64,000 nt of DNA from IMG/VR virus record IMGVR_UViG_3300042731_007310, positions 20,479-84,478 of that record; one strand, written 5' to 3'. Source of the DNA: a virus. Under the pieces are notes generated by a model. That model saw only the letters and a list, made by a program, of their open reading frames with translations, made no database searches and was not told the DNA's origin. This document shows, piece after piece, positions 6,413-56,312 of the stretch (position 1 is its first letter; every line of letters begins with the position of its first letter). The position numbers and the translations under genes were made by a program.

Positions 6413-6423
6413 AGGGATATCAT

Positions 6424-6957: not shown

Positions 6958-7080
6958 TCTACTTTGTTGTATGCTGTAGTTATGATGAAAACTACAACTT
7001 CAACCCTAGCGAAAGCAGGATTACGCGTTGAAGACGGTTCGTAATCTGTCAAGGGTTGACACTACAAAGGAGAAAGTGAA
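6958..7080 (+). other. intergenic leader before first decoration-type gene
   Basis: 123 bases. It holds inverted repeats GTAGTT/AACTAC around 6976-6995 and TGTCAA-GGG-TTGACA near 7048-7062, and a strong AAGGAG SD just before 7081. A 20-codon frame at 6982-7044 has no SD and is not called. The boundary separates accessory and structural genes, so a promoter is expected, but I see no convincing -35/-10 pair. Confidence 0.35.
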
Positions 7081-7377: not shown

Positions 7378-7395
7378 ACCCTTTGCCTATATACC

Positions 7396-7421
7396 GCTAG
7401 GCGCTCTTAGGGGCGCCTAGC
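7396..7421 (+). promoter_or_regulatory. intergenic RNA hairpin
   Basis: Perfect 9-base-pair stem GCTAGGCGC / GCGCCTAGC with an 8-base loop, 18 bases after a stop. No T tract follows, so it is not a standard terminator; mRNA 3'-end stabilisation or processing is more likely. Confidence 0.5.
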
Positions 7422-7453
7422 AATTCGATCCACTTCAACTAGGAGAGTTTTTC

Positions 7454-7909
7454 ATGGGCTACTTTGATCCAAGAGACGGTAGAAGAAAATCGGATCCATT
7501 GAGATCGTTAGATAGAGCACCAGCATACGCGCCAGACTGGCAACTTCACCGGGTAACGAATGCTCAAGATACGGTTTTTACAGAAAAGAAACATGGCGTA
7601 AATTGTGGTCATTATAAATCTGTAAGATTTGCTATTGTTCCATACGACAATGATCCTACAAGGGTTCCTGGTGCCACACCTGGTGGTTCGGCAAATCCAA
7701 ATGTTGAGGTTATGATTTGGTCTGAAAGTGCTGGTGAATTTCTTTCATTTCCTACCGCACTAACCGGAACTGGTGTTGGTGCTGGTGATCCGTATATGGT
7801 TGACGTTGAAAATGCAAACGGAGCAATTTTATTTGTTGCCGTAACGGCCGCACCTGGTGGTGTTGTTGCAATATCAGCACAAGGTTACGAAATCGATCAT
7901 ACGTTGTAA
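7454..7909 (+). CDS. structural protein, probable head decoration
   Basis: 151 residues. AGGAGAG SD upstream. The sequence is beta-rich with Gly/Pro loops (PGATPGGSANPNVEVMIW, GAILFVAVTAAPGGVVAISAQGY), as in jelly-roll or Ig-like decoration proteins. The stop overlaps the next ATG (TAATG). The function is inferred from position between a small virion-type gene and the terminase. Confidence 0.45.
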   Translation: MGYFDPRDGRRKSDPLRSLDRAPAYAPDWQLHRVTNAQDTVFTEKKHGVNCGHYKSVRFAIVPYDNDPTRVPGATPGGSANPNVEVMIWSESAGEFLSFPTALTGTGVGAGDPYMVDVENANGAILFVAVTAAPGGVVAISAQGYEIDHTL

Positions 7910-8178
7910 TGCCCTTCCCCAACGAGCACGCGGCTAGACAAGCCGATCCTGATAGCTTTGATACTTTCCGTAGGGGAAAGCCGAAGGGCTTTCCCCGTGG
8001 TATATCTGTTATATTTGGTATAAAGAATGGTAAATCACGTATTCGGACCATCCGTTTCGATCGTAAACTATGGACTGTTGCGCGCGCTAGAGAGTGGCTA
8101 AAAAATCATGGTTTCAAATCAACCATAGAAGCCGCTTCGAAAAAAGTAAAAAAAGGTTTTTGGAAAGGGATAATCTAG
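7909..8178 (+). CDS. small head-module protein with prohead-protease-associated motif
   Basis: 89 residues. It begins PNEHAARQADPDSFDTFRR and continues ISVIFGIKNGKSRIRTIRFD, then WTVARAREWLKNHGF. This pattern (EHAAR near the start, RF then WT-x-A-x-A-x-x-WL) recurs in short phage proteins and domains linked to prohead protease genes. Enzymatic activity is unlikely at this size. The gene contains a perfect 10-base-pair hairpin (7973-7996). Confidence 0.5.
   Translation: MPFPNEHAARQADPDSFDTFRRGKPKGFPRGISVIFGIKNGKSRIRTIRFDRKLWTVARAREWLKNHGFKSTIEAASKKVKKGFWKGII
7973..7996 (+). promoter_or_regulatory. intragenic perfect hairpin
   Basis: GGGGAAAGCC (7973-7982), loop GAAG, GGCTTTCCCC (7987-7996). 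It is encoded by the RGKPKGFPR codons. No T tract follows. It would be among the most stable RNA stems in the window. Confidence 0.45.
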
Positions 8179-8204
8179 TATCGTTATGTTCAACTTCAAA
8201 TTTA

Positions 8205-8227
8205 CAAGGGACTTCTAATGTCCCTTG
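8205..8227 (+). promoter_or_regulatory. SD-sequestering hairpin at the large terminase start
   Basis: CAAGGGAC (8205-8212) pairs perfectly with GTCCCTTG (8220-8227). The loop TTCTAAT holds the first two bases of ATG 8218. The SD AAGGGA and codons 2-3 are therefore base-paired, which should lower initiation or make it regulated. Confidence 0.55.
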
Positions 8228-9690
8228 CACTATCCATACCGACTGAAAAACAGATTCGTAAGGCCGATAGGGTCCAATTGGAAACTTACTATCGCGATAC
8301 GTATCAGACTAGGGATGGATGGATTAGAAAACAAGTTTTAGAAAACAACAGGATTGACATACTGGCTATTGAAGTTCTTGGAAAGCAAATAGAACCTTTT
8401 CATTTGTCACTTCTGAAATATCAATTTGCTCATCCAGAAAATTTACAATTGTGTTTCCGTGGCGCTGGTAAATCAACCGTTTGTACTGAAATAAAAACGA
8501 TACACTTACTTCTGAAAAATCCAAACCTAAGAATATTGATTGCTTCTAAAACTATAGCTAATGCTAAAGGATTTTTAAAAAATATAAAATCTCATTTTGA
8601 AACTAACCAAAGGTTAGAAGAGATATTTGGTCAATACTATGATCCACGTCGAGTAGGAAAATGGGATGAAGTAGAAATAGAAGTGTTGCCAAGGACAATA
8701 GTTGCCAAAGAAGCATCAGTTACTTGTGTTGGTGTTGAAGGTACTGTTGTTTCTAAACACTACGATATAATAATATCTGATGATTTGATTGATGAAGAAA
8801 ACAGTAGAAGTAAGCTTCAAAGGGACAAAACACGTACGTGGTTTTACAACACGTTGATGCCAACGTTAGAACCGCCAGATCCGGAAGTGGAACACCGTGG
8901 TGAACATCATATGTTAGGGACTCGCTATCATTATGACGATTTATATGGTCATCTAATAGATAACGAATTGAAGGAACACCACCAAATAATTCCAGCGCTT
9001 GATAATAACGGCCGTAGTCCATGGCCTAAAAAGTTTTCGCCTAAGTGGTTTGCGGAAAAACGTAAGCGTTCCGGACTAATCATCTTCAACTGTCAATATC
9101 AGTGTGACACCGAAGCGATGAAGGGCGAGATCTTCCAATATGATCAGTGTCAACAAATATCTGAAGAAGAATGGCCAGATCACAAGAATCTTCGCGTTTT
9201 TATGGGTGTTGATCTTGCTATTAGCGAAAGTGAATCAGCCGATAAATTCGCTATAGTAGTCATAGGAATAAATAGAGACAGAAGTGCTTACTACGTTCTA
9301 GATTATTATGAAAATCAATTGAGATTCAAAGAACAGACAAAAAAGATACTGGAATACTATCGAAGATGGCGACCTATTAGGTGTGCAATCGAGACAAATC
9401 AATATCAAGCCGCACAATATCAAACCTTGAAGGAAAAGAATCCAGATATTCGACTGAAGAAGGTTCAAACTGACAAAGACAAAATAACGAGAGCTTGGAA
9501 ATTGTCGTCAATTTTTGAAGACAATAGAGTGTTTTTTAGGAAGGGAATACAGGCATTATTGATAGAGCATATGGTTCTATTCCCAAACCATAGGTATAAA
9601 GATCTCTTTGATGCTTTCGATTTATCGGTACAAGCGAGTAAAATGAAACGAAAAAGGCGTAGAAGAGAAACGGAACCGGGAGTAATGTAA
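8218..9690 (+). CDS. terL: terminase large subunit
   Basis: 490 residues, the usual size. It is the packaging motor: an N-terminal ATPase that docks on the portal and a C-terminal RuvC-type nuclease that cuts concatemers. Walker A-like FRGAGKST is near residue 80, Walker B IIISDD near 185. The nuclease domain starts with FMGVDLAISESES (Asp near 331), with a late acidic site in KDLFDAFDLS. The start ATG 8218 lies in the loop of a hairpin that hides its SD. The portal gene follows one base after the stop. Confidence 0.95.
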   Translation: MSLALSIPTEKQIRKADRVQLETYYRDTYQTRDGWIRKQVLENNRIDILAIEVLGKQIEPFHLSLLKYQFAHPENLQLCFRGAGKSTVCTEIKTIHLLLKNPNLRILIASKTIANAKGFLKNIKSHFETNQRLEEIFGQYYDPRRVGKWDEVEIEVLPRTIVAKEASVTCVGVEGTVVSKHYDIIISDDLIDEENSRSKLQRDKTRTWFYNTLMPTLEPPDPEVEHRGEHHMLGTRYHYDDLYGHLIDNELKEHHQIIPALDNNGRSPWPKKFSPKWFAEKRKRSGLIIFNCQYQCDTEAMKGEIFQYDQCQQISEEEWPDHKNLRVFMGVDLAISESESADKFAIVVIGINRDRSAYYVLDYYENQLRFKEQTKKILEYYRRWRPIRCAIETNQYQAAQYQTLKEKNPDIRLKKVQTDKDKITRAWKLSSIFEDNRVFFRKGIQALLIEHMVLFPNHRYKDLFDAFDLSVQASKMKRKRRRRETEPGVM

Positions 9691-9691
9691 A

Positions 9692-11542
9692 ATGGACAAA
9701 TCAGAACAACATAAGGCTACTATTTCGTCCAATAAAGCAAACAAGAAAGCGCTTCAGAAGGTTCGCGCTTTAGTAATAGACGTAAGTAAATCTGGTGCGG
9801 CTAATGGTTTGACAAGTAGTAATGCTGAACCTGGTAGATCTGAAGCTTTACCTGAAGAACCGTTTCACGCATTAGGGCATATGGGGAAAATACTTCTTCC
9901 GCCTTTCGATATGCTTACGTTGTCAATGTTGGTTGAGAATAATAGCGAGCTAAATCAGTGTATAGAAGCGATGGAAACCAATATTGACGCAACCGGTCAT
10001 AGGTTCATTTCTAGGCTAAGAATGGATGATATAACACCTACAAGTAATGATTCGGGTGAATCACAAGGAGAGCTTACACCGGAACAAGAAAAACTTATCT
10101 TGAACGCAAAGAAAGAAAAGGTTGGTTTGATCAATTTCTTTACCTATGCGACTTCAGAAAGTTTCGTTTCTTTTCGTAGAAAGTTGAGAAAAGATATTGA
10201 GTCAACAGGAAATTGTTACTTTGAAATAATCCGGAATGACGCTGGACAGATTCAGGGTTTTACTCATTTGCCTAGCTATCAAATGAGAATAGGTAAATTA
10301 GAAGAAGAACCCGTTGAATCTGAAAGGAGTATTCTAGAACTTCAAATAGACGGATCTGTGAAAATAAAAAAGCAAAAAGTAATTCGAAGATTCAGAAACT
10401 ATGTTCAAAGTAGATCTATTCATCAGGGAAGGGCTCAATCATCCATTACTGGTCATAAGGTTGTTTGGTTCAAAGAATTTGGTGATCCAAGATTCTACAG
10501 TAAAAGAGATGGTAAAGAAAGGAAGAGAATACAAAAAGAAGATAGGGCTACTGAAGTAATGCATCTAAAAATTTATAGCCCTAGAAGTGCTTACGGATTA
10601 CCGCGATACATTGGTAATCTACTTTCAATATTTGGTGATCGTGCGGCTGAAGAAATAAATTGGATAACCTTCAAGAACAACAACATACCTAGTATGGTTA
10701 TTGCTGTATCAAATGGGCAATTGACACAAGCAAGCGTAGAAAGAATTCAATCATTTGTTGAGTCTCAAATACAAGGATCTGACAACTATTCAAAGTTTCT
10801 TTTGGTTGAAGCTGAATCGTTGGGTGAAGAAGAAGGTGAAGATGGTGGTCAGGTAAAGATAGATATAAAGCCATTGACAGATAACCAACATAATGACGCA
10901 CTATTTCAAAATTATAGTGAAAATAATCAAGATAAAATTAGGCGTGCTTTTAGACTTCCACCTATTTTCGTTGGAAAAGCAAAGGACTATACGCGCGCTA
11001 CCGCTGAATCTTCAAGACGATTAGCTGATGAACAAATATTCAAACCAGAAAGAGACGAATTCGACGAATGTATAAACAGAATGTTGTTTCCAGAAATGGG
11101 TATAATTTATCATAAGTATAGGAGTAATACGCCAAACACCACGGATAACGCTCAATTAGTGAAGATTCTTGGTGGTGCCGAAAAGACTGGTGGTATAACT
11201 CCGCGAATTGCAAGGTTCATAATCGAAGATATTTTAGGTATAGACCTTCCGGACTTTCCGGATGATTTCCCCGCTGATGTTCCATTCTCTATGACTATGG
11301 CGCAAGCCGTAAAGAACAAGGCCGATCCGACTGAACCCGGTCAACAGGTCACAGCATTGAAGACATTGAAGTCACTTGGAATAATCGACGATGACGGTGA
11401 TTTTGATTTGGCAAGTCTTGAACTTGAGGATCTGGATGAGAGTGATCCTGAAAGTGTAATGGACGTTGCTAAAAAATTGTTGTCATTGAACAGAGCGGCT
11501 GAAATTTTGTGGCGTCAAAAAGTTATGGAAGAAGTTGAATGA
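9692..11542 (+). CDS. portal protein
   Basis: 616 residues. Forms the dodecameric DNA channel at one capsid vertex. The core resembles PBSX/P2-type portals: SVENN-like helices (LSMLVENNSELNQCIEAMETNIDATG), the LKIYSPRSAYGLPRYIGNLL segment, and LPPIFVGKAKDYTRATAESS in the wing and stem. An acidic C-terminal extension (DDDGDFDLASLELEDLDESD) follows. GGAG SD. The 3' end overlaps the Mu gpF-like gene by 4 bases. Confidence 0.9.
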   Translation: MDKSEQHKATISSNKANKKALQKVRALVIDVSKSGAANGLTSSNAEPGRSEALPEEPFHALGHMGKILLPPFDMLTLSMLVENNSELNQCIEAMETNIDATGHRFISRLRMDDITPTSNDSGESQGELTPEQEKLILNAKKEKVGLINFFTYATSESFVSFRRKLRKDIESTGNCYFEIIRNDAGQIQGFTHLPSYQMRIGKLEEEPVESERSILELQIDGSVKIKKQKVIRRFRNYVQSRSIHQGRAQSSITGHKVVWFKEFGDPRFYSKRDGKERKRIQKEDRATEVMHLKIYSPRSAYGLPRYIGNLLSIFGDRAAEEINWITFKNNNIPSMVIAVSNGQLTQASVERIQSFVESQIQGSDNYSKFLLVEAESLGEEEGEDGGQVKIDIKPLTDNQHNDALFQNYSENNQDKIRRAFRLPPIFVGKAKDYTRATAESSRRLADEQIFKPERDEFDECINRMLFPEMGIIYHKYRSNTPNTTDNAQLVKILGGAEKTGGITPRIARFIIEDILGIDLPDFPDDFPADVPFSMTMAQAVKNKADPTEPGQQVTALKTLKSLGIIDDDGDFDLASLELEDLDESDPESVMDVAKKLLSLNRAAEILWRQKVMEEVE

Positions 11543-21749: not shown

Positions 21750-24700
21750 ATGGCTATTCCATCTTATGAAGGTATTGCATCTAATACGGCGTTTGCTTCA
21801 TCAATCACCGTAGATATATCTGGTATAGATGGTGGGAGTCCACCTACTGTTGGTGATTTACTAATTGCTAATGTTTCTGTAGTAAATATATCAGCTCCAA
21901 CAAATGAACTTATAACCGCACCTGATGGATGGCACAAACTTGGAAAGGTACTTTTAGGTCACCGTGATGCTTTATTTTGGAAGATAAGGGAAAGCGGAGA
22001 TAGCAACAGTGTTCAATTTGGTCATGCTGGAATAGGTGTACTAAACACAATAGCATATATCCATTGTATACGTGGCGCTGATAAAGCAAGGCCAATAGTA
22101 AGGCAATCAATAAATTATGAAGATTCTGGAACCTATAATTGGGATGCAGAAACAACACCTGTAGCAGATTGTTTAGCGATAGCTTCAGTAAATTTAGCTG
22201 AAGGAAATAATACTGGTGCTAGTCCGGCTAGCGGTTGGACAGAAAGACTAGACATTGGAATTGGAATTTTGATTGATGAGCTTACTTCTTACGTTCAAAC
22301 AAGGGGATTTGCAACGCAAGGAAGTAGTACTGGAAATCCATCAACTGATATTCCGGGTATAGTTTCGTATCAATATATTGCACGTATGATATTGGTTCAA
22401 CCGCCACAAACGGCTACACCAAAAGATATTCGTGTTGCAACTGGAACATTTGCTAGTCCTACTTCAACAGGTAATCAAGATTTTACAAATCTAGGATTTG
22501 ACTGCAAAGCGTTGATAATTTACGGAATAAGGAACTCCGATCAATCAGCGGTGACGGATATAGAATACACACACGGAATAGGTGCCGACGACGGTGTGAC
22601 CAGCGCGGCACAAAGATGCTTTGGAGTTTGGCATGATTCCGGATCTGGTGCGGCTGGATATAGTAGAAATGGAGAAATAATCGCGCTCTACATCGCCGGC
22701 AACTCTACGTTGGGCAGTCCGGATTTATTGGCTACGTACAGCAGAATCACAGGCGGATTCAGATTGAATTGGACTTCCGTAATGGGAAGCGGTTATGCGT
22801 TTAGTTACATGGCTTTCGGAGGAGCCGATTTCCAAGCAGCTTGCGGAGCCGTTCAAGCCAGCGCAGGTTCAGTTAGTGGCTTGAATTTCAGACCTGAAGC
22901 TGTTCATATAATAGGTCAATGCCTTGATTCTGATTCAGATCAATTGAGGACCGTTTACGGTTTAGGAGCTTGCGGATGGTTAGATTGCCAAACCGGCGCC
23001 CAATTCTATTCTTTCATCGACACACAAGAAACCGGAAACGGGGAATTCATATTCAGGGATTCTGGATTGTACGGTCAATCGGTCGGAGGAACTCCGGGTT
23101 GGGAGATAGAATTCGCAAAAACCAATTCAGACGGTTGGAACTGGGCAGGGACCGATTCAGATTACTTCTTCTATTTGGCCATGTATTTCGGCGGAACCAC
23201 GTATTTCCCGTATCAAGTTGAGTATATTGAATCAGATGATTCCGGAACTGGTGGGGCCGATCAATATCTACCTTCATTTGCGCTAGATCAGACATATGCA
23301 ACCAAAAAATTAATTCATGCTTTAGGAAATAGGGACGGAACAGATGTGGGTTTAGAAGCTGGTGGATGTTCTGAAGGTCACGTAAAATTTTCGTATGAAG
23401 CGGTTGATCAAGATGGTATGGCAATAGCCAAAATCGGAAGTACATCAGAGAGAAGAAGGGCTACATTTCAAGCGATACTGATGCACTCTTCTGGTGATTT
23501 AGATTCGATTGGAAAATTAGGTAGATTTTATTATCCAGATTATATCGACTGGCAAGTAAATAATACCGTAGATCATTTGATAGGTTTATTTACTTTAGGA
23601 TTTATAGGTCAAGTCTATACGAGAATAATCAATGATACAATATCCGTATCAGATAATCTTGACGTTGAAATGTTTTATGGAAGGACTACTGTTTCAGACA
23701 ATGTTTCAGTAACAGATTCCATTCAACGTGTTCATGATGCTCACCGGATTATAAACGACACTATTTCAGTCACAGATCAAATTCAACGCGAACATGACGC
23801 TGTTAGAATCATCAACGATACAGTAAACGTATCAGATCAAGTATATACTAATCTAGAATATGAAAGATCAATAAACGACACTGTTTCTATTTCAGATCAG
23901 ATTCAAAGCGAACATGACGCTGTTAGAATCATCAACGATACTGTTTCTGTTTCTGATTCTTTATCCACAGAACTTTCATATGGAAGAACGCTTTCTGACA
24001 CTGTTTCGGTTACAGATTCTATTCAACGTGAACATGATGCTCACCGAATAGTAGGCGACGCTATTTCAATAACAGATCAAGCTTCTACCGAATTAGAGTA
24101 TGGAAGGGCGGTAGGCGACACTGTTTCGGTAACCGATCAAATTCAAAGGGAACATGACGCTGTAAGAACGATTGATGACACCGTTTCAGTAACCGATCAG
24201 ATTCAACGTGTTCATGATGCTCACCGGATTATAAGCGATTCGATATCTGTTACAGATCAAATTCAGCGAGCCCATGACGCAAGTAGGATAATAGACGATT
24301 CGATATCTGTTACAGATCAAATTCAGCGAGCCCATGAATCACATAGAATTATAAATGATAATATAAGTATTTCTGATTCGATAAATGTGAATACAGCTTT
24401 TTGTTTTTGTTTTAGCGATCCTATAAACGTCATCGATCAGATTTTACGTGCTCATGACGCGGTTAGAACAATAAACGATCAAATTGCCGTTATTGATTCT
24501 GTCGTTAGAAACATGTATTTTGAAAGATCTGTAAATGATACGGTAAACATAACCGATCAACTTGTAGTAGAATTCTTTATAGAGAGAACTGTTAGTGACA
24601 CCATAAGCGTATCTGATCAACTATCAAGGGATCACGATTCTTCAAGAACGTTTGATGACAACGTATCAGTAGTTGATCAAATAGCGATAGAAGTATTTAT

Positions 24701-33481: not shown

Positions 33482-34360
33482 ATGAAAAAAGTAGGTACAA
33501 AAGAGATAAAAGAAGACGATCCGAAAGTCAAAGAAACACCGGGTCGAATGACTATAACGTTAGGGGAATACCGCGATAGATTACCTGTTGGTATATTGCA
33601 AGGCGGTAAACTCTATAAAGACGTTATTTTGAAGCCATGGCGTACTAAAGACGAACGTGAATTAGGGAAGAAATTTCCTAATGACGCTGGTATGGCTGAA
33701 CATGTTTCGATAGTAGTAGCCAATATGTGTTCTAAATTAGGCCCTCATGATATGGACAGTATGAAGGACGCTGAAAAATCATTGGTTGTTTCTACTATGT
33801 ATATGGCCGATGTTTTTTATGTCTATACGTTATTGAGATTGAAATCTATGGGCAAGGATTTGAAGCTTACAATTACCTGCCCTACACCTGGTTGTGGTGT
33901 TGAATTCCCATATGTTGGAAATCTTGAAACCATAGAAGTATCGTACGTTGAAGATCTTGACGATATTTTGTGGAACTATGACCTTCACGATCCTATCGAC
34001 ATAAGAAAACAGAAAGTCGAAAAATTTAGGATGGCATATCCCAAATGGTCGGTAATGGAAGAAGGACGTGGAAACACAAACGAAGCTGAAGTGAAAGCTA
34101 TGACTCTTCTTGGTTCAATCGTTGGTCTAAACGATGTAAATGAGCCCGTATCATTGACTATGTCTGAAATTGATGAGTTATCAAAAGTTGATTTTGAATG
34201 TCTCATTCAAGGAATAAATGATCATTTTTTAGGCCCTAAAATGGGCATAGAAGGCGAGTGTACACCGGAAATTTGTACTAAGCTGAAGCGCGGTGGTCAT
34301 AAATTTATCTTTCCGATAGATTGGAGGTATAAGAATTTTTTCGGTTCTTCTTCCCGATAA
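33482..34360 (+). CDS. tail assembly chaperone / baseplate-hub-related protein (0-frame product)
   Basis: 292 residues, SD GGAGG. Contains a four-Cys-like element (TCPTPGCGVEF at about 137-147 and CTPEIC near 272) and ends KFIFPIDWRYKNFFGSSSR. This Cys set plus the terminal Phe-Pro-Ile-Asp-Trp/Phe-Phe pattern occurs in myophage proteins encoded just before the tape measure. A T TTT TTC slippery site seven codons from the stop gives a longer form (see 34342-34578). Confidence 0.7.
   Translation: MKKVGTKEIKEDDPKVKETPGRMTITLGEYRDRLPVGILQGGKLYKDVILKPWRTKDERELGKKFPNDAGMAEHVSIVVANMCSKLGPHDMDSMKDAEKSLVVSTMYMADVFYVYTLLRLKSMGKDLKLTITCPTPGCGVEFPYVGNLETIEVSYVEDLDDILWNYDLHDPIDIRKQKVEKFRMAYPKWSVMEEGRGNTNEAEVKAMTLLGSIVGLNDVNEPVSLTMSEIDELSKVDFECLIQGINDHFLGPKMGIEGECTPEICTKLKRGGHKFIFPIDWRYKNFFGSSSR
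34336..34342 (+). promoter_or_regulatory. putative -1 ribosomal frameshift site T TTT TTC
   Basis: In the 0 frame the codons are AAT TTT TTC, so the heptamer T TTT TTC fits X XXY YYZ. The 0-frame stop is 15 bases on (34358-34360). The -1 frame opens after a TAA at 34330-34332 and stays open to 34578. Lambda G/GT-type chaperones use the same principle. Confidence 0.75.
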
Positions 34361-34578
34361 CTAGTGTAGACGAGTTACGGGAAGAAACTTTTGGTCTATA
34401 TTATTTTTCTGAAGGTGGAATCAATTACGACAATATAGATAATATGGATTCAGAAGAAAGAGCGTGGCATCTAAGACGAATTTATGATCAAAAGAAAAAA
34501 GAAAGTGACGCGGTAAAAAAGGCTCAAGGAGGTACGAATAAACCGGCTGGTGGTAGAATAAGAAGAAAACGGAGATAG
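34342..34578 (+). CDS. -1 frame extension of the tail chaperone (made by frameshifting)
   Basis: 78 codons in the -1 frame after the slip site, ending at TAG 34576-34578, four bases before the tape-measure GTG. No start codon lies near its beginning, so it needs frameshifting; the fusion would be about 365 residues (33482-34578). The sequence SVDELREETFGLYYFSEGGI, then ERAWHLRRIYDQKKKE is like the second half of myophage tape-measure chaperones. The tail is Lys/Arg/Gly-rich. Confidence 0.7.
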   Translation, partial: RFFFPITSVDELREETFGLYYFSEGGINYDNIDNMDSEERAWHLRRIYDQKKKESDAVKKAQGGTNKPAGGRIRRKRR

Positions 34579-37781: not shown

Positions 37782-39077
37782 ATGGTTATAGGAATTTCCA
37801 CGGTAGACAATCCATTTTCTAATGACGTTGGGTTCAATGCGCCTAATTTTATGTTGAAAATTCAAGGTGCAAATGTACCGATCGGAATACGTCGATTGAT
37901 CAGTAAAATAGAGTATGAATCTTCTGATGGTATGGCTGATATGATGCGGATAACCTTTGTTGATCCGGGTCTTATACCACCAAAAGGATTGAATGCTATT
38001 GGTCCTATAGGTGGATTTGGTGGTTTGGGCGGTGGAAGTGGTAGTTCTGTATCGTTGAGAGATACAAAAATAATACAACCTGGAAATGAAATAAGTTTAT
38101 GGTTAGGATATGGAACACAATTAAAACACGTTGGTAGAACTATTATTAGAAAAATAAGGCCTAGATATCCACGTGAAGAAATACCAAGTCTTGAGGTAAT
38201 AGGGTATACAAAAGATTCTGTTATGATGGATCACGCCCCTGAAAAATCGAAGAAGAAAAAGGGAAAAGGTGGAAGAATATTCAAACAAACTACGTTCGCT
38301 AATGCAGTTAGAGAAAGAGCACAAGATTATAATTTTTCATTAGATGTAGATGATACTTCTGATTCACCACACAACTTCATTCAAAAAGTTGGTTTGACAG
38401 ATTATGACTTTATAAATGGTTTAGCAAATCTAACGGGTTATTATTTTTGGGTTGATGGTGATTCAAGTGGAAAATGGACGCTTCATTTCAAAAATCCAGA
38501 AACATTATCTAGAGATGTTTTACAAGATAAAATATATACATTTATTTATGATAGAAGTGACTATAGTTCTTTACTGGAATTCGAGCCTGAATTAGCTATT
38601 CAAGGGGCAACAACCAAACTTCAAGCTAAAGTAAAGGATCCTAAAACCGGAAAGGTTTTGGATGCCGACTTTGAAGAAGAAAACGATCAATCGCCTGATA
38701 TTACCGTTGAAGCCGGAACCGATATACGGGCTTCAAGAAATGAACTCGAAGGTAATCATACTACGGCAAGCGATATAAAGATATTTATAGATGATTATAG
38801 TTTTGAAGTAAGGTCAAATAGGCGTTTTAAAACTGAAGCTGAATTGATTGCATGGGCTAAACAATGGTTTCGAAGAAACAGAGAGAACTTTGTTTTGTCC
38901 AGTGGAACCATAATAGGTGTAGAATCTGTTATGGCAAGGCAAATACATAAACTATCTGGGTTAGGCGCTGGTTTGAATGGAGAATATTTTTTTAGCAATG
39001 TAACTCATACAATGGACAAAGAAGGCGGTTATGAAATTGAGTGTAATATGAGAAAGGTGGTTCCGAGTTTAGCATGA
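37782..39077 (+). CDS. baseplate hub protein (gpD / late control / VgrG N-terminal type)
   Basis: 431 residues. The hub trimer holds the spike. Family marks: KIEYESSDGMADMMRITFVD, WLGYGTQLKHVGRTIIRKI, SLEVIGYTKDSVMMDHAP, then FANAVRERAQDYNF and DYDFINGLANLTGYYFWVDG. The late region KKFKTEAELIAWAKQWFRRN is not exact, but the WAKQWF helix fits gpD. ATGA-type overlap with the spike gene downstream. Confidence 0.85.
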   Translation: MVIGISTVDNPFSNDVGFNAPNFMLKIQGANVPIGIRRLISKIEYESSDGMADMMRITFVDPGLIPPKGLNAIGPIGGFGGLGGGSGSSVSLRDTKIIQPGNEISLWLGYGTQLKHVGRTIIRKIRPRYPREEIPSLEVIGYTKDSVMMDHAPEKSKKKKGKGGRIFKQTTFANAVRERAQDYNFSLDVDDTSDSPHNFIQKVGLTDYDFINGLANLTGYYFWVDGDSSGKWTLHFKNPETLSRDVLQDKIYTFIYDRSDYSSLLEFEPELAIQGATTKLQAKVKDPKTGKVLDADFEEENDQSPDITVEAGTDIRASRNELEGNHTTASDIKIFIDDYSFEVRSNRRFKTEAELIAWAKQWFRRNRENFVLSSGTIIGVESVMARQIHKLSGLGAGLNGEYFFSNVTHTMDKEGGYEIECNMRKVVPSLA

Positions 39078-39928
39078 TAAATACAGCTACATATTACGCT
39101 ACTGTGACATTCAATGAAGATCCTGATAAGTTAGGAAGGATCCGTGTTGCGTGTGTTGGTTTATTAGGTGATGAAGAGACAGAAATACCTATAGACATTG
39201 AGCCCGTTCATGACTGGGGGTGGTTCTACATTCCGGATATAGGTGAAATAGTCGAAATAGAAGTGACTGAAGGTTCTTCTGAAGACGAGCAACACGGACA
39301 AATGTCAATAGACAATTTAGACATAAAGTGGCGTTCAGCGCGCGCTTACGGAAATGAAGAAGGTGACACACCAACACCCATCAATGAAGATTTCACGTCA
39401 ACCAATTATGGAAAAAGACGCGGGTTCGCTACTCCTATGGGTCACGTGTTTTTGTTTGATGACAAAGAAGGTTCAGAACAAGTTTCTTTGAAGTGGCAAA
39501 ATAAGGCTGGTGAAAACTGTTTTTTCGCAATGGATAAAGATGGTTCGATAGTCATGAGTAACAAGACTGGAACCACTTTATTTTTCAATGCTAAAGACGG
39601 TCAAATGTCGATTATCGATCAACACGGAAACGTTTTTTCATCCGATAGCACTGGATTGAAATTGATTGACGCTAGCGGAAATTCTGTAGAGTTGAAGAGT
39701 GGCGCTATAATCGTGTTGGGTCAAAGTGGTGTAACCATCAGTTGTAAAGACGCTGTTATTGACGCTGGAAATGTTGAAATAACAGGTAATGTTGAAGCGG
39801 CTGTATTGGGAACTACGTTTCTTCCGCTCCTAAACGCACATGTACATCCAACTGGTGTAGGTCCGAGTGGAACGCCTACACCACCGTTTGCACCTACAAT
39901 TCTTTCAACCAAGGTAAAGGTGGGTTGA
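39074..39928 (+). CDS. baseplate central spike (gpV / gp5 type)
   Basis: 284 residues. An OB-fold domain (residues of about 6-65: VTFNEDPDKLGRIRVACVGL, WGWFYIPDIGEIVEIE) is followed by a beta-helix of short repeats (TTLFFNAKDGQMSIIDQHGN...VELKSGAIIVLGQSGVTISC). The end LLNAHVHPTGVGPSGTPTPP carries the His-x-His that binds iron at the tip in P2 gpV-type spikes. No lysozyme domain. Followed by a Pro-rich small protein. Confidence 0.9.
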   Translation: MINTATYYATVTFNEDPDKLGRIRVACVGLLGDEETEIPIDIEPVHDWGWFYIPDIGEIVEIEVTEGSSEDEQHGQMSIDNLDIKWRSARAYGNEEGDTPTPINEDFTSTNYGKRRGFATPMGHVFLFDDKEGSEQVSLKWQNKAGENCFFAMDKDGSIVMSNKTGTTLFFNAKDGQMSIIDQHGNVFSSDSTGLKLIDASGNSVELKSGAIIVLGQSGVTISCKDAVIDAGNVEITGNVEAAVLGTTFLPLLNAHVHPTGVGPSGTPTPPFAPTILSTKVKVG

Positions 39929-48975: not shown

Positions 48976-49417
48976 TCTATCATTGTTTATCGTGTCAAAC
49001 TGGCCTTCTAAGGCGTTCGCTTGTGACACGATCGAGAATGCGACTTTGGAATCTAGTTGCGTTGTGATGGCAAGGGAAGGCCAAAGGGGTGTATGGTTTT
49101 CGTTTTCGGAAGCTGAACGACTTCGGAAGGCAAGTTTGATAGTTCCTGAACTTCAACTTCAGATAAAAAAGTTTGAACAATCTGAAATTGAGAAGAATTC
49201 GGAAGTATCAAATTTACGTGAAGCGTTGAAGCTACAGAAGGAATCAACAACCACTCTAGAATCTACGGTAGAGACCTATGTCAAACAGACACGTGAAGCG
49301 AAAGAAGATGCGGCTGAAGCCCGTGAAGCGCTTGACGCTTGGTATCGATCATGGTGGTTTCTAACGGGCTTAGGAGCCGTTTTAGGCACTGGCGTTACAC
49401 TTGCGATTGTACTGTAA
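48938..49417 (+). CDS. secreted coiled-coil protein with C-terminal membrane helix, spanin-like
   Basis: 159 residues. A cleavable-looking signal (LAILVCSLSLFIVSN, then AFA before Cys29), a coiled coil at about residues 75-130, and a C-terminal transmembrane helix (WWFLTGLGAVLGTGVTLAIV). Cys29 directly after AFA could be lipidated, but the box is not canonical. A lipid-anchored N terminus with a C-terminal helix would be the layout of a one-protein u-spanin. Its overlap with the upstream spanin-like gene is unusual for that type. Confidence 0.5.
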   Translation: MKLRNFLAILVCSLSLFIVSNWPSKAFACDTIENATLESSCVVMAREGQRGVWFSFSEAERLRKASLIVPELQLQIKKFEQSEIEKNSEVSNLREALKLQKESTTTLESTVETYVKQTREAKEDAAEAREALDAWYRSWWFLTGLGAVLGTGVTLAIVL

Positions 49418-49453
49418 TTCATCGACGATAAAAGATATCGGATACATCTAGTT
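49416..49453 (+). promoter_or_regulatory. putative leaderless promoter H (AATTCATCG, 18-19 bases, TACATC)
   Basis: AATTCATCG at 49416-49424 overlaps the stop of the spanin-like gene. Exactly 29 bases lie before GTG 49454. TACATC at 49443-49448 takes the -10 position. No SD precedes the helicase gene. It would start the replication operon. Confidence 0.65.
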
Positions 49454-50911
49454 GTGTCCGTAATTCTTACAATCGATAACACCTTTGTTTATATCGATGG
49501 CGCTGATTTGAAAACTACGCGCGCTATCGATAACAAGTGTTCTTACAAGATAGCTGGTTACTTCTTCAGTCCAGCTTACAAATCCCGTAGATGGGATGGA
49601 AAAGAGCACCTATTCAAATTCACCAAGACTAACGGATATCACGCCCCTGTTGGTATGCTAACCGACATTGTTGACGTGTTGAATAAGAAGAAGGTCAAGT
49701 ATTCTGTTTCCTTCAAGACAAATCTGAAACACGATAAAGTGGATCTTGAATGGAATAATGAAATACAACTAAGAGACTACCAAAATGAAGCTGTAAAGGC
49801 GATGTTTGACAAGCCCTTTCCGGGTAGGGGTGTTTTAAAGATGCCAATACGTTCCGGAAAAACAAAGACAGTAGCCAAGATAATTCAGAAGATAGGTAGG
49901 CCTTCAATATTTGTTGTTCCTTCAAAGTGGCTTCTTTACCAAACAATAAATAGCGTAAAGGAGTGCATACCTAACGTAGAAGTAGGTCAGATTGGTGATA
50001 GCGTATATGATCCAAAATTTGTGACAGTAGCTACCATTCAATCGCTTGCTAAAATGGCTCCTATTCGTGGTACAAAAAAACGAGAAAGTAGACAAGCTCA
50101 TCCAGACTACTTCGGATTGATGACACGATTTGACTTAGGTATTTTTGATGAGTGTCATCATATACGTGGACAAGGTGACTGGCATAGAGTTTTTCTTGAT
50201 CTTGAAGCGAGATTCAAAATAGGTATTTCGGCTACTGTATTTTTCGACAACACCAAAGAACAGGAAGCTGGTATTATTTGGTTACGCGGAAATTGTGGAC
50301 CTATCAAGTGTGATATTCCGACTTCGCGATTGATCAAAGAAGGGTTTCTTTTACCTCAACACGTGAAAATCTACAAAGTTGAAGAACCAAATCTTCAAAA
50401 TTCAAGATACAGTGCAACACTAAAGAAGCGTTGTATCACCGAAAACCAATATCGAAACAAGATGATTGCTTCATTGGTTGAAGAACACCTACCAATGAAG
50501 ACGATTATAATAGCTAATGAACACAATCATATAGCTCGAATTTGTAATGAGCTTTTAGAGCTTGATATCGACTTTAGAACCCTAACAGGTAGAGACAAAC
50601 AGAGTAGAAGAGATAGTGTTGTTGAAGACTTCGTTAGTGGTAGATTCAACGTTATCATCGGAAATGTCTTAGGTGAAGGTGTTGATATTCCTGAAGTTGA
50701 ATGTGTGATAAACGCTGAAGGCGGTAAAGACGAAAAGAAGACTTGGCAAAGACAAAGAAATCTAACCATCGTAGAAGGTAGTGATAAGGTCCCTGTAATG
50801 ATAGATTTCTACGATGACACATGTTCATATTTTAGAAGGCATAGTAAGGCTAGATTGAAGGTCTATAAAAGCGAACCAGAATTCAAAACGGAGATCCTTG
50901 AATGGCGATAG
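49454..50911 (+). CDS. SF2 DNA/RNA helicase, UvsW-like
   Basis: 485 residues from GTG 49454. SF2 motifs in order: Q-like LRDYQNEAV near residue 106, Walker A PIRSGKTKT near 131, DECHH near 231 (motif II), SATVF near 258 (motif III), then ALTGRDKQ-like and VLGEGVDIPEVECVI (motif V), and WQRQRN (motif VI). Resembles T4 UvsW, which unwinds R-loops and branched DNA. First gene of the replication block and preceded by promoter element H. Its end overlaps the next ATG by 10 bases. Confidence 0.8.
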   Translation: MSVILTIDNTFVYIDGADLKTTRAIDNKCSYKIAGYFFSPAYKSRRWDGKEHLFKFTKTNGYHAPVGMLTDIVDVLNKKKVKYSVSFKTNLKHDKVDLEWNNEIQLRDYQNEAVKAMFDKPFPGRGVLKMPIRSGKTKTVAKIIQKIGRPSIFVVPSKWLLYQTINSVKECIPNVEVGQIGDSVYDPKFVTVATIQSLAKMAPIRGTKKRESRQAHPDYFGLMTRFDLGIFDECHHIRGQGDWHRVFLDLEARFKIGISATVFFDNTKEQEAGIIWLRGNCGPIKCDIPTSRLIKEGFLLPQHVKIYKVEEPNLQNSRYSATLKKRCITENQYRNKMIASLVEEHLPMKTIIIANEHNHIARICNELLELDIDFRTLTGRDKQSRRDSVVEDFVSGRFNVIIGNVLGEGVDIPEVECVINAEGGKDEKKTWQRQRNLTIVEGSDKVPVMIDFYDDTCSYFRRHSKARLKVYKSEPEFKTEILEWR

Positions 50912-51516
50912 GCAAGAAAAGCAAAAAGGGCGAAAGAATCAAAGCGCTTCCGGATCGTTTTGAGAATGAAGGACCTATCGAACTTCCGGAAGCATACGAG
51001 AAATTGTCTCATGTTGCTTTTGCTGTTTGGATTCGATTATCGGTAGCTTCAAGAGAAGATCTTCACGGTGGTAGACAATACATTGCTGATATTCTTGGTT
51101 ACTCTCAACGGCGATCAAATGAAATCCTTTTAGAGTTAGAAAGAAAAGGATTCATCATATTTATGCCTGAAGGACCTTGGCAAAAAACAGCGATCGCAAT
51201 CATGAGAAAACCACTTTTGAGAAGGGGTGCAAACTTCACTAAATTTTCCGGATTTCTGTCAAAAGTCGATTTCACAATTAACAGAAGTCCGGAAAATTTC
51301 GATCTGAGAGCTAAAATTCACACTGTTATTGTTGGAACCGGTCAGTATAAATCTATACCTGAATCTAGTGATTTTTTTGATCATTCACGAACTTGCACGG
51401 ATCCGTCACACACTTGCACGAATTCGTCACACACTTGCACGAATTCGTCACACACTTGCTTAGCCAAAAAAACGAATCCTATAAATTTATGCCGTTTGAA
51501 GAAGGAAAAAAAATGA
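50902..51516 (+). CDS. replication initiator-like protein with internal iterons
   Basis: 204 residues. A winged-helix region (LHGGRQYIADILGYSQRRSN, EILLELERKGFIIFM) sits at about residues 55-95, like the DNA-binding half of lambda O-type initiators. The C-terminal part is repetitive (CTDPSHTCTNSSHTCTNSSH) because it is encoded by a 21-base-pair tandem repeat. The gene lies just upstream of the primosome genes, as O lies before P in lambda. SD GGAG; ATGA overlap downstream. Confidence 0.6.
   Translation: MAIGKKSKKGERIKALPDRFENEGPIELPEAYEKLSHVAFAVWIRLSVASREDLHGGRQYIADILGYSQRRSNEILLELERKGFIIFMPEGPWQKTAIAIMRKPLLRRGANFTKFSGFLSKVDFTINRSPENFDLRAKIHTVIVGTGQYKSIPESSDFFDHSRTCTDPSHTCTNSSHTCTNSSHTCLAKKTNPINLCRLKKEKK
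51391..51460 (+). repeat. 21-bp iteron array, candidate replication origin
   Basis: Three tandem 21-base direct repeats (51391-51411, 51412-51432, 51433-51453) plus a 7-base partial copy. The repeat frame is ACTTGCAC-core-CACAC; the centre is the palindrome ACGGATCCGT in copy 1 and ACGAATTCGT in copies 2 and 3, so the two changes are symmetric. AT-rich stretches flank it (TTTTTTGATC before; AAAAAAA and TATAAATTTA after). The layout recalls lambda ori inside gene O. Confidence 0.7.
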
Positions 51517-52415
51517 AATTGGTCGAAAAAAAGTCCGCTTCAACTAGCAGAAATTATAGGCGTAAATTTGTACAAGAAAACGGCTATCTAAAAGAATCGG
51601 ACGTCTATAGTAATATATGTAGTAATTTAAGATCTTATAAAGAACAAGATAAAATTAATAGACGAGCTTTACGTAGTAAAGCGAGTCATATTAGAAAAGT
51701 AAGAAACCAGAATAATCGTTCTCGCGGAATTGAAGTCATTGAATGGGATGATTTAGAAATCATCACCTTCAATCCAATAAATAAGAAACACAAAAAACAT
51801 CTTCAAATACTTCGTCTCAATCCCCGGAATTCTAAAAGACAAAAATTGGTGTCAAGATTAGAAACAGAATTTTGTAGATTGTATTCGAGATATAGAAGAG
51901 CGGCTGAAAGAGCACTTGATAGAACCACGGTTGTTTATGATGTACATGAGAACGAAAGAAAGTATGCTGCACTTGCCGCGATCACATGTCTTCAGAAGGG
52001 AGTAACACCTAGACAGGTTTTTGAATACTGGCACAAAAACATAAAACACTTCAAAGGTGCTAACACAATGACAATACCTTCTTTATCTTTTATATCAAGC
52101 GCTGCAAACATAGATACAGTAGCTTGTTCATTGGTTCCGGATAAGGACGATCCAAAAAAGAAACGAGTAAAAACAAAGGAACCTGAATTTAGGCCTTCGT
52201 TTGGAAATAGTTTCAGTGACACTTCCGGATTAGACATTCGTCTTAGAGAACGACTAACAAAGGCTGGTTATGATACTACAAAATATAATGACCGTTATTT
52301 GATGACAGTTCAAAAAACGGCTTTAGCTATTGCAATGGGTAGAGATATCTTTGTGCCAGAAAGCGAAATAGGTGAGATGTCTAGATGGGTAGCGGAGAAT
52401 TTATATGCGACGTGA
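51513..52415 (+). CDS. replication-module protein, DnaD/primosome-like candidate
   Basis: 300 residues from ATG 51513, chosen for AAGGA 6-7 bases upstream and ATGA overlap; the longer frame from 51393 would run through the iterons. Very basic N-terminal half. The middle (RAAERALDRTTVVYDVHENE, ALAAITCLQKGVTPRQVFEY) is helical and resembles small DnaD-like or initiator-partner domains. Lies between initiator and helicase loader. Function inferred from position. Confidence 0.5.
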   Translation: MKLVEKKSASTSRNYRRKFVQENGYLKESDVYSNICSNLRSYKEQDKINRRALRSKASHIRKVRNQNNRSRGIEVIEWDDLEIITFNPINKKHKKHLQILRLNPRNSKRQKLVSRLETEFCRLYSRYRRAAERALDRTTVVYDVHENERKYAALAAITCLQKGVTPRQVFEYWHKNIKHFKGANTMTIPSLSFISSAANIDTVACSLVPDKDDPKKKRVKTKEPEFRPSFGNSFSDTSGLDIRLRERLTKAGYDTTKYNDRYLMTVQKTALAIAMGRDIFVPESEIGEMSRWVAENLYAT

Positions 52416-53079
52416 AAATGAAGTTCATGATTTTACATCGGTTATGTACGATGAATATGGTGAAGAAGATCCAGTAGCCGAGTATCGTATAGCTTGCTAC
52501 GAAGCTTGTATTCCAAAAACGTTTTGGGATGTATCATCAAAACATGTTTCTCACAACGAAGAAGTTTTCAATAAAGTGGTTGTGTCGTATCGAAAGCATT
52601 GGAAGAAAGCGATAAGGAAGGGGTATTCTTTATTATTCGTAGGAGATAACGGAAGTGGGAAAACCATGTTTATCAGTTATCTGTTGACTCAAATGATAAA
52701 ACGTGGATTGACAGCTTACTACACTACTCTTACTCAACTTGACATAGATATCAAAATGGGTTTCAGGGATAACGATTTAGCGTTGAGACTTGAATATATG
52801 TTGGAAAGTGATTTTGTTGCTATCGACGAGATAGGGAAAGAATCTTTCAAAACAGACGGGTATCTAACCACTCGACTAGAGCACTATTTGAAAAAGCGAT
52901 ATGATGATGGTGAACCAATGTTGTTATCTTCGAATATTGATATTGAATCATTGTGTAAGATGTATGGTTCGACTATTGAATCTATGCTTGACGGAAAATA
53001 CAGAACAGTCTCATTAGAGCCCGGTGATTTTAGGAAGTCAACTAAGGCTAGGATGAAGAAGGATATGAACTACAAATGA
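52405..53079 (+). CDS. DnaC/IstB-like helicase loader ATPase
   Basis: 224 residues. AAA+ loader with Walker A LFVGDNGSGKTMF near residue 79 and Walker B VAIDEIGKE near 140 (in the DFVAIDEIG stretch), plus a sensor-like LLSSNIDIESL near 176. Loaders of this kind deliver DnaB to an opened origin. The next gene is the DnaB homologue, overlapping by 4 bases, which supports the role. Confidence 0.8.
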   Translation: MRRENEVHDFTSVMYDEYGEEDPVAEYRIACYEACIPKTFWDVSSKHVSHNEEVFNKVVVSYRKHWKKAIRKGYSLLFVGDNGSGKTMFISYLLTQMIKRGLTAYYTTLTQLDIDIKMGFRDNDLALRLEYMLESDFVAIDEIGKESFKTDGYLTTRLEHYLKKRYDDGEPMLLSSNIDIESLCKMYGSTIESMLDGKYRTVSLEPGDFRKSTKARMKKDMNYK

Positions 53080-54506
53080 AATTCGATCAAAAATATGAGG
53101 ATCAAGTTTTATCTCAGTGTTTGAGAGATGAGAATTTCTTGAAACGTGCTAGCCGTGTTTGTGAAGCTCATATTTTTTCTACCAAAGAAAGATCATGGTT
53201 GTGGAATATTATTCATGATAATTGGAAAAGTTATCGTGAAAGGACCACACCAAATATCATAAAGTCGCGAGCGAAAAATGATTTTGATAAAAAAGACAAA
53301 AGGAAGCCATATTTAGTTTTAGCCAAAAGAATAATTCAAACAAAACCGCGTAATCCGAAAACTGTTTTAGACGAGCTTGACAAGTTTGTTCGTCACGTAA
53401 ACGTTCAGATAGCAATTGAAAAAGGCGCTGAACTTCTAGAGAAGAACAAAGTAGAAGAAGCCGAAAGGGTAATAGCTAAAAGTTCAAGGTCTATTGTTAG
53501 ACAAAGAAACTATACTCACATACCTTGGATAGAAAATTTTGATTCACGTCAAGAACAAAGAAAATACGAAAGAGATCATCCTGAAGAGTACGTTACGATA
53601 CCATTTGGATTTCCTAAGATAGACAAGGTTTTATCTGGTGGTGGAAGAAAGGGTGAACTTGGACTTATTATTGGTACTACAGGAAGGGGTAAATCTGTTT
53701 TTCTGACAAACGTAGCTATGGCGTGTGTAGCGCGCGGATTCAACGCTATCTATTTTGGTTTCGAAATGCCAGCGCGCCAATTAGCAACACGTCAAGATTC
53801 AAGGTGGTCAGGTATAAAGTATAACAAGTTCAAGGCGTATGATTTTGATCCTTCAGAAATGAGATTATTAGCTAGGCGATTGAAGAAAGCAAAAAAGAAA
53901 TTCAAAAACAGACTTCATATAGTTTCTATGCCAGTTAGATCGGCGAATATGTTAGACGTAAGGAATGCAATAGATGATATAAGACAGGATTTTGGATTTG
54001 AAGCTGATGCAATATTTTTAGATTCAGCGGACCATCTTCGATCGCTTGAAGGTTATGGAAGTAATTATCGCCTTCAACAGGCTGAAGTATATTGGTCATG
54101 TAAAGAACTAGCTGAAGAAGATGGTTACTTTGTTATGTCTTCAACACAAGCCGGTAAAGAATGGGTGAAGAGAATAGCTACCGCTGAAGCTTCTTCTGAA
54201 TCTTATGACAAGAGTAGGATCGCGGATTTGGTTTTATCACTAAATGATCCGTTTGAGATGAGAAAAAAGGGTAGAAAAACAATCGTTCAAGACGATGACG
54301 ACGATGACGACGATTTTGAAAAAGACGAAGAAATAGATACGCCTACGGTGAAAGAAGGTTCTAAGTTACTAGAGCTTTACATGAGTAAGTATCGTGATGG
54401 CGATTCAAAATTCAAGGTTGACCTTGAATGTGATTTTTCAACAATCACAATGAAAGAAATTTCTAAAGACGATGACGATGACGAAGGTGATGACGATGAC
54501 GATTGA
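53076..54506 (+). CDS. dnaB: replicative DnaB-like helicase
   Basis: 476 residues. RecA-fold helicase: Walker A IIGTTGRGKSVFLTN near residue 199, then AIYFGFEMPARQLATR, and Walker B AIFLDSADHLRSLEG near 310, SSTQAGKEW near 355. The N-terminal region (DQVLSQCLRDENFLKRASRV) is the DnaB N-terminal domain. The C-terminal 60 residues carry two poly-Asp runs encoded by GAT/GAC repeats, an unusual addition. The methyltransferase gene starts inside its last 11 bases. Confidence 0.85.
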   Translation: MKFDQKYEDQVLSQCLRDENFLKRASRVCEAHIFSTKERSWLWNIIHDNWKSYRERTTPNIIKSRAKNDFDKKDKRKPYLVLAKRIIQTKPRNPKTVLDELDKFVRHVNVQIAIEKGAELLEKNKVEEAERVIAKSSRSIVRQRNYTHIPWIENFDSRQEQRKYERDHPEEYVTIPFGFPKIDKVLSGGGRKGELGLIIGTTGRGKSVFLTNVAMACVARGFNAIYFGFEMPARQLATRQDSRWSGIKYNKFKAYDFDPSEMRLLARRLKKAKKKFKNRLHIVSMPVRSANMLDVRNAIDDIRQDFGFEADAIFLDSADHLRSLEGYGSNYRLQQAEVYWSCKELAEEDGYFVMSSTQAGKEWVKRIATAEASSESYDKSRIADLVLSLNDPFEMRKKGRKTIVQDDDDDDDDFEKDEEIDTPTVKEGSKLLELYMSKYRDGDSKFKVDLECDFSTITMKEISKDDDDDEGDDDDD

Positions 54507-55278
54507 GAGAAGATGGCAAATAGCTAATCAGTGGCTTGAAGATTCAAAATCAAATTGGATGGTTTTCTTGTGTGATGCCTTTGAAGGAATGAGGTTGATT
54601 CCTTCCGGAAGTATAGATTTGATAGTTACCGATCCGGCTTATGAATCGCTCGAAAAATATCGTGACAGTAAAGCTAGAATCAAGAAGTATGAAAGAGAAA
54701 AAGCGGCTGGTAAGTTGAAGGGTACGCGTATACCACGATTACGTGACTGGTTTGAGATAATGCCTAATGATAGGTTTCCGGAATTGTTGGATCAATACTA
54801 TAGAATCATGTCTGAAAATTCGCACTGTTACATTTTCTGTGATGACGAAACTTCCGATGTGATCAAGAAGTATGTTGATGAACAAGGTAAGTTCAAATGG
54901 TGGAAGCGTATTGTTTGGGATAAGCTACACCGTGGTCAAGGTTATCACTATCCAAACCAACATGAATTTATTATCTTCTTGGAAAAGGGAAAGCGTAAAC
55001 TAAACACTTTCGATTATGCTTCAGTGATTCAGTGTAAACGTGTTTCGAAAAAGTCGTTAGGTGGAAGGGATCCGGGTCCTACTGAAAAACCGGTTAGCCT
55101 AATTGAAAAATTTGTTTTGAACAGTAGTAACCCTGGTGAAATCGTTTTCGATTCGTTTTTAGGACGTGGTCCTACCGGTGTAGCAGCGGTGAGTAATGGC
55201 CGTGAATTCCTTGGTTTTGATTTGGACAAGAAAGCTGTTAGAATATCACGTGATAGATTGAGAAATATTGAGTTATGA
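54496..55278 (+). CDS. beta-class DNA methyltransferase (N6-adenine or N4-cytosine)
   Basis: 260 residues from ATG 54496, picked for GAAGG 8 bases upstream; ATGs at 54472, 54478 and 54490 are in frame because of the GAT/GAC repeat. Motif IV is DLIVTDPAYESL near residues 42-53, with the Tyr of DPPY kept and a Pro changed to Ala. The AdoMet site FDSFLGRGPTGVAAV (FxGxG type) comes after it near 218, so the order is that of the beta class. It may protect phage DNA or mark origins. ATGA overlap with the primase. Confidence 0.75.
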   Translation: MTIERRWQIANQWLEDSKSNWMVFLCDAFEGMRLIPSGSIDLIVTDPAYESLEKYRDSKARIKKYEREKAAGKLKGTRIPRLRDWFEIMPNDRFPELLDQYYRIMSENSHCYIFCDDETSDVIKKYVDEQGKFKWWKRIVWDKLHRGQGYHYPNQHEFIIFLEKGKRKLNTFDYASVIQCKRVSKKSLGGRDPGPTEKPVSLIEKFVLNSSNPGEIVFDSFLGRGPTGVAAVSNGREFLGFDLDKKAVRISRDRLRNIEL

Positions 55279-56312
55279 GATTTGATATAGAAGAATACAT
55301 TTTATCTAATCTAGCAAGGCCAAAACCTGTTCAGTCAAAGAATGGTCAAGAGATGACAGCCGTTTGTCCATCTTGCGAAAAATATGGTGGATTTTATATA
55401 AATAAAGAAACAGGTGCTTATCTTTGTAATAAGTGTGGCTTTAGGGCTATGACGGTTGTTGGATTGGTTGCTAAAGTTGAAGATATATCTTGGTCTGAAG
55501 CGCGCGCTTACATCTTCCAAAAATCGGTGAAGTTGAGAAGGAAGTCAGATGTTTTTTCACTTATCGACAGAATAAGATCCTTACGTCCGGAAGCGGTGAA
55601 GGACGATGAAAAACGTGAAAATGTAGACGTTGATTTACCAGAATATTTCGTTCCTATTTTCGATCCAAAAAGAACACCGAATTGGAAAATACCTCATTAC
55701 TTGAAGCAACGTAAGATAAAGTCTTACACTGTGAAAGATTGGGGTTTAGGATACTGTCGGAAGGGGAAATATTCGGATAGGTTGATTATCCCGATTGAAT
55801 GCCCTAATGGAGTTTCTTGGACTGCTAGGGCTATGTCTGATGACGTGTATGGCCCGAAGTATCTAAACCCACCAGGTGCGGACCATTCTAGGCTTCTAAT
55901 CGGCTGGAATGTTTCAAGGATTACTGGCGACTTGGTTTTGGTTGAAGGTCCCTTAGACGCTGTTAGGCTGTATCAAAACGATATTTCAGCTCTAGCGTTG
56001 GGTGGTAAAGAAATTCATGACGAACAATTGGGTTTATTGATGAAGCTGAACAAATCATCAGCGATAACAATTATGCTTGATCCAACCGAAGATATAGCGC
56101 CATACGACATAGCCGCTCGTTTATCTGTACATTTTGATTACATCTATATAGCAAGATTGCCGAAAGTGAAAATTAATGGAGAAATGGTAGATCCTGGTAG
56201 CGCTCCTAAAAAAATGTCGCATAGGGCTATCGAAAACGCTGAAAGGTGGACTGGTTCGAGATCTCCAAGGTTGAAGGCGATTATTTCAAGAAGTCGTGAA
56301 AAATTGCGGTAA
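55275..56312 (+). CDS. DnaG-type primase (zinc ribbon plus TOPRIM)
   Basis: 345 residues. CPSC near 31 and CNKC near 51 form the zinc ribbon (VCPSCEKYGGFYINKETGAY). The catalytic core has YLKQRKIKSYTVKDWGLGYC, then IPIECPNGVSWTARAM. TOPRIM is DLVLVEGPLDAVRLYQND near 220 (the conserved Glu) and TIMLDPTEDIAPYD near 272 (Asp-x-Asp-like DPTED). Shorter than E. coli DnaG; the C-terminal helicase-binding domain is short. Ends the replication operon. Confidence 0.85.
   Translation: MRFDIEEYILSNLARPKPVQSKNGQEMTAVCPSCEKYGGFYINKETGAYLCNKCGFRAMTVVGLVAKVEDISWSEARAYIFQKSVKLRRKSDVFSLIDRIRSLRPEAVKDDEKRENVDVDLPEYFVPIFDPKRTPNWKIPHYLKQRKIKSYTVKDWGLGYCRKGKYSDRLIIPIECPNGVSWTARAMSDDVYGPKYLNPPGADHSRLLIGWNVSRITGDLVLVEGPLDAVRLYQNDISALALGGKEIHDEQLGLLMKLNKSSAITIMLDPTEDIAPYDIAARLSVHFDYIYIARLPKVKINGEMVDPGSAPKKMSHRAIENAERWTGSRSPRLKAIISRSREKLR

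Follow-up and report, generated by a model that had tools for sequence, protein, structure and literature searches.

Does the tandem repeat array inside the winged-helix gene of this phage mark the site at which its replication begins? The stretch of DNA analyzed here (the window) is 64,000 nucleotides in length and corresponds to positions 20479–84478 of an 84,478-base virus record. The original prediction placed an origin inside the initiator gene, in the style of ori λ, and this proposal is supported by the conserved position of the array, by the presence of equivalent iterons in relatives, and by GC skew. Considered as a whole, the observations are best explained if the array supplies the iterons of this phage's theta-type origin and is bound by the initiator encoded by the same gene, a reading to which a probability of roughly 0.84 is assigned.

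The presence of tandem 21-base repeats in the initiator-like gene was confirmed at the predicted place. Tandem Repeats Finder reports a period of 21 with 3.3 copies and 95% matches at 51391–51459. The self-match at this period is 40/42 and the runner-up period reaches 28/42, making the array unique in the 64-kb window; across 100 dinucleotide shuffles, the best self-match did not exceed 28/42. Alignment with relatives indicates that the repeat unit is the core TCACACACTTGC, which occurs four times in 21-bp steps at 51385–51459. Consequently, the repeats are real and their number, originally given as three, is four. The first core (TCACGAACTTGC, 51385–51396) had been overlooked, and it is followed on the plus strand by three copies of TCACACACTTGC at 51406–51417, 51427–51438, and 51448–51459. 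The last of these continues with TTA and is, among the four copies, the closest to the distal sites described below. The AT-rich flanks that had been described are found on the 3' side, where the 61-nt tract at 51460–51520 (plus strand) has an AT content of 0.74, falls within the top 1.7% of the window, and is a candidate unwinding element, whereas the 5' flank is only mildly AT-rich (0.66, top 18% of the window). A pattern search of IMG/VR returned no near-identical arrays, and no Rfam match was obtained at 49000–53500 or in the record stretches carrying the distal clusters of the window's own genome (G000) and of G001.

The original prediction also emphasized a palindrome within the repeat, in which paired base changes between copies appeared to preserve dyad symmetry at the expense of the encoded amino acids (Asp-Pro versus Asn-Ser). 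The copies do differ as described (GGATCC versus GAATTC), yet the palindrome lies outside the conserved site. In G000, CTTGCACG follows the core in 0/10 distal copies, with CTTGCTTA, CTTACCTG, and similar sequences found instead, and the spacers of three close relatives (L006, L008, and L024) are non-palindromic while the core TCAnnCA(G/C)TTACC is kept. Together these results rule out the palindrome as a conserved site, and it is best seen as spacer. The amino acid argument fails as well, since the frame in which ORF1 crosses the array is not the one used by the relatives. A stronger dyad is located upstream of the array (z = -5.2), with 19-bp arms that differ by one mismatch (51241–51259 and 51281–51299, plus strand) and are separated by 21 nt, the left arm beginning at the end of the winged-helix homology. 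An interrupted dyad with exactly this 21-nt gap is found in four genomes (the window, L006, L008, and L024), in all of which it is positioned where the winged-helix homology stops, near residue 119, with the repeats following some 50–90 nt further downstream.

The array sits within a gene module with the order helicase, winged helix, C-terminal domain, DnaC-like loader, DnaB, and primase, which is kept in environmental phages with records of up to 116 kb. In the window, the upstream neighbor is a UvsW-like helicase, and the downstream genes encode a loader, a DnaB-like helicase, a methyltransferase, and a primase. The predicted replication functions downstream of the initiator are borne out by matches of the plus-strand genes for the DnaC-like helicase loader (52405–53079; PHROG 50, E 5e-20; IstB-like ATPase in Pfam), the DnaB-like replicative helicase (53076–54506; PHROG 19, E 6e-53), and the DnaG-like primase (55275–56312; PHROG 47, E 4e-39). 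In L019 (5436–6478) and L010 (307–1340), helicase and loader genes are each broken by about 1 kb, possibly by introns or homing elements.

The initiator itself matched no sequence family in Pfam, PHROGs, or PDB sequences, where only weak generic HTH matches and one weak DnaD-like match were obtained, and it is encoded by none of the catalogued phages searched. A PDB fold search gave mostly generic MarR/ArsR neighbors for the winged helix, none of them strong, along with 4pql, 4pt7, and 5kbj (weak, E 0.004–0.03), which we take to be RepA_N-type structures. When the fused model (pTM 0.33) was used in the PDB fold search, the best neighbors covered the winged helix alone and the C-terminal domain was without a match; a broader scan with the fused protein gained no further genome. 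Judged by sequence, the initiator family is likely undescribed, and the comparison made below with SPP1 G38P is one of described locus design.

The initiator gene is split in the window, as it is in L011 and L012. In nine relatives the winged helix, linker, and C-terminal domain form a single polypeptide in one frame; here, ORF1 (50902–51516, plus strand) encodes the winged-helix domain (residues about 25–119) followed by an 85-residue tail across the origin, and ORF2 (51513–52415, plus strand) encodes the C-terminal domain. The 204-residue ORF that had been named as the initiator gene is thus its winged-helix part, representing the N-terminal portion and not the whole. Over the repeats it is the ORF2 frame, and not that of ORF1, that has the reading phase of the relatives, suggesting that the ORF1 tail is a derived reading; in its own frame this tail is without homologues. 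The AlphaFold model of ORF1 has pLDDT > 90 for most of residues 30–100 and < 50 over most of residues 123–189, such that the winged helix is modeled confidently and the origin-encoded tail is predicted to be disordered.

The junction of the two ORFs carries a run of eight A residues (51506–51513, plus strand) with AGGA just upstream, an ATG at 51513, and a TGA at 51514. Coupled translation of ORF1 and ORF2 is the simpler reading of this arrangement, because the AGGA lies at initiation distance from the ATG and the relatives also keep an ATG there. Alternatively, ribosomes might shift into the -1 frame on the A8 run, or the transcript might slip there, yielding both a separate winged-helix protein and a fused initiator; this possibility concerns how the split gene works and is compatible with the origin reading. 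The run is read as A AAA AAA in the ORF1 frame immediately before the TGA, ORF2 is in the -1 frame, and the relatives have the fused single-frame ORF, all of which fit such an event. Against these stand the same AGGA and conserved ATG, the failure to find a stable RNA structure downstream (z = +0.2), and the restriction of the evidence to one genome, in which an assembly error in the homopolymer is possible. Recoding at this site is considered unlikely. A simple homopolymer error further upstream was also considered and is an unlikely cause of the split, as there are stops in the ORF2 frame up to 51378.

The linker DNA of the relatives offers insight into what is retained at this locus. The three closest relatives (L006, L008, and L024) each have four repeats in the linker DNA, 20–21 bp apart, with the core TCAnnCA(G/C)TTACC, and in the same place L026 carries TCGGACTTTCCCAG four times with a 22-bp spacing. 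Sequence comparison thus indicates that the plan of the linker DNA is conserved and its sequence is not. In the three close relatives, the linker DNA belongs to the top 1–3% in A+T content. Three leucine codons of the TTA type, each 7 codons from the next, occupy matching columns within the iterons in 3/3 of these GC-rich genomes. Across the whole gene, synonymous identity among these relatives is 0.62, and it rises to 38/42 in the dyad and to 24/29 in the iterons; codons 81–90 and 291–300 are equally high, such that the conservation extends beyond the origin. Only a weak repeat pair is found in L011, and no comparable phased linker array was found in the distant module carriers G007, G009, G010, and G012/L031, which have other repeats or nothing. 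Relatives that keep the protein without repeats had been named as evidence that would count against the proposal, and these do exist in part, since the distant relatives G009, G010, and L012 have no detectable array while L006, L008, L024, and L026 keep the iterons. Three further observations concern repeats elsewhere. G008 carries the four-copy linker array at two places (34311–34390 and 75634–75713) with much the same spacers, which suggests duplication or concerted evolution. In the very distant relative L033, GTGTACCAAAAATGAGCCAC repeats (10414–10520) are located upstream of the winged-helix gene, outside any linker. The window itself also contains tandem repeats of 60 bases at 23754–24337, which may lie in coding sequence.

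The cumulative GC skew, proposed originally as a check, agrees with an origin at this locus, as the minimum of the detrended curve lies within 3 kb of it in 9/10 genomes; the exception is G004, with a minimum 10 kb away. Third-position skew was also calculated using plus-strand genes only, a choice intended to reduce effects of gene direction and amino acid content. This skew is greater downstream than upstream of the locus in 10/10 genomes, with p<0.05 in 9. The support from skew is strong but is not tenfold independent, because these genomes share ancestry and may owe part of the signal to gene content.

The core motif is not confined to the linker. The whole G000 genome contains 16 core matches versus 2.4 expected, ten of which occur in both orientations at record positions 6075–8656, outside the window and partly within >1 kb of largely noncoding DNA. 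Equivalent distal clusters, each with the motif of its own genome, are found in G001, G003, G005, and G008, and in these five genomes the linker and distal motifs change together. There are about 10–17 distal sites each in G000, G001, and G003, and many of those in G001 and G003 follow one another at 20–22 bp, with orientations such as ++-- and +--. In G002, G004, G007, G009, and G010, some of which are partial records, the search revealed no distal cluster. The simplest explanation of the shared motif, as read from the DNA, would be one trans-acting factor for both loci, and we infer the winged helix as its natural candidate. The distal cluster probably offers a further site to that protein and would either act in an oriR-like manner, as another origin or a barrier to forks, or control early genes. 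Some distal sites are directly upstream of small ORFs, and the motif may for this reason also serve transcription; a scan of the distal region for sigma-70 promoters and terminators gave no excess versus shuffles. The distal region also contains a short conserved noncoding block (G000 6936, G001 47408, G003 64224) consisting of GAGGGCTCCC followed by GGC(T/G)GACCCAACAA or a close variant, for which the searched stretches of G000 and G001 gave no match in Rfam.

If the array is an origin, the following mechanism can be proposed, in which the identity of the binding domain, the site of DNA opening, and the hand-over to the loader are inferred. The winged-helix domain, encoded just upstream, would bind the four 12-bp cores as a phased complex, with the 21-bp core spacing corresponding to two helical turns. 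The interrupted dyad may help or regulate this complex, which would then open the A+T-rich DNA on the 3' side of the array. Finally, the C-terminal domain (ORF2 here, part of the same polypeptide in most relatives) would hand over to the DnaC-like loader, which would load DnaB. Because the origin DNA encodes a flexible linker between folded domains, it would be free to change without harm to the protein.

Other explanations must be weighed against this one. The motif could be an operator through which the winged-helix protein or another regulator represses or activates early genes, the linker array serving autoregulation or titration with no origin present. In G000, distal sites do precede small ORFs, partly as converging pairs (7247/7267 before an ATG at 7308, 7790 before 7893, and 8656 before 8726), and the winged-helix fold, with its mostly MarR/ArsR neighbors in the PDB, is common among transcription regulators. 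Regulation alone is nevertheless improbable given that the skew switches at the linker array in nearly every genome, that four direct repeats are spaced by two turns, and that the array separates the DNA-binding domain from the C-terminal domain of a protein whose gene adjoins those for a loader and DnaB. It is less probable still that the distal noncoding cluster is the main origin and the linker array secondary: the skew minima are at the linker and not at the distal cluster, and five genomes (some of them partial) yielded no such cluster, although where it occurs it has more sites and spans >1 kb of largely noncoding DNA with conserved blocks. A tandem duplication that arose by chance in a rapidly evolving part of the protein, and that has no function as DNA, would suit a tail that is predicted to be disordered and has no homologues in the ORF1 frame. 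Such an accident is very hard to reconcile with relatives whose arrays differ in sequence yet share their place, with the distal cores, and with the skew switch.

An origin in the linker of an initiator gene would offer a replication-start site for large phages whose initiator has no catalogued relative, and the relatives form a natural series across which the initiator has changed in concert with its two sets of DNA sites. This co-change across genomes makes DNA recognition and the role of the second arrays testable. A wider reading, put forward tentatively and at somewhat less than even odds, is that these proteins form an undescribed initiator family of large environmental phages with an origin in its own linker and converging phased sites at a distance. 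A single protein would initiate replication at the direct repeats and, at the converging sites, control early genes or stop forks, with the motif co-evolving at both loci.

The locus can be compared with several known replicons. In phage λ (J02459), as here, four iterons lie in the initiator gene after the DNA-binding domain (39034–39118 inside 38686–39585), and the loader gene is directly downstream. The λ iterons are spaced by 20–24 bp, in contrast to the regular 21 bp found here, and no significant similarity of the initiator to λ O was detected (hhalign probability < 1%). To our knowledge, λ P is not a DnaC-like ATPase. The RepA_N plasmid initiators share a winged helix of about 120 residues, an ori-encoded linker, and a C-terminal domain with the protein described here, which has no match to the Pfam RepA_N domain. 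In pSK41 Rep, the N-terminal winged helix of about 120 residues binds four boxes inside rep, the linker (121–199) is encoded by ori, and the C-terminal domain contacts replication proteins (PMC5703833). Unlike the phage, pSK41 is a plasmid and uses the host helicase. By the tests run, the initiator is not a member of the λ O or RepA_N families. For the P1 lytic replicon repL/oriL, an origin within the initiator gene has likewise been postulated and an A+T-rich element is required; its protein is a different one, and no iteron array was noted in its description (PMC9948254).

A design with two loci has been reported for Bacillus phage SPP1, in which oriL lies within gene 38 and oriR is distant (PMC6316719, PMC3485210). 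In both phages the origin, a probable one in the present case, is in the initiator gene and is followed by genes for a loader and a DnaB-type helicase (38-39-40 in SPP1), and direct repeats accompany an A+T-rich region (PMC6316719, PMC3485210). The SPP1 initiator binds a second, distant locus; here a second array is present in five genomes and would presumably be bound in the same way. The two differ in that SPP1 relies on the host primase whereas this phage encodes its own, and in that the distal cluster here includes converging sites. Beside λ, SPP1, and the RepA_N plasmids, this locus would represent a further case of an origin placed between two domains in an initiator gene, to which the window phage adds a variant with the gene split at the origin. 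It is likely a replication origin of known design with an undescribed initiator family, of which the second array and the split gene are the variant features.
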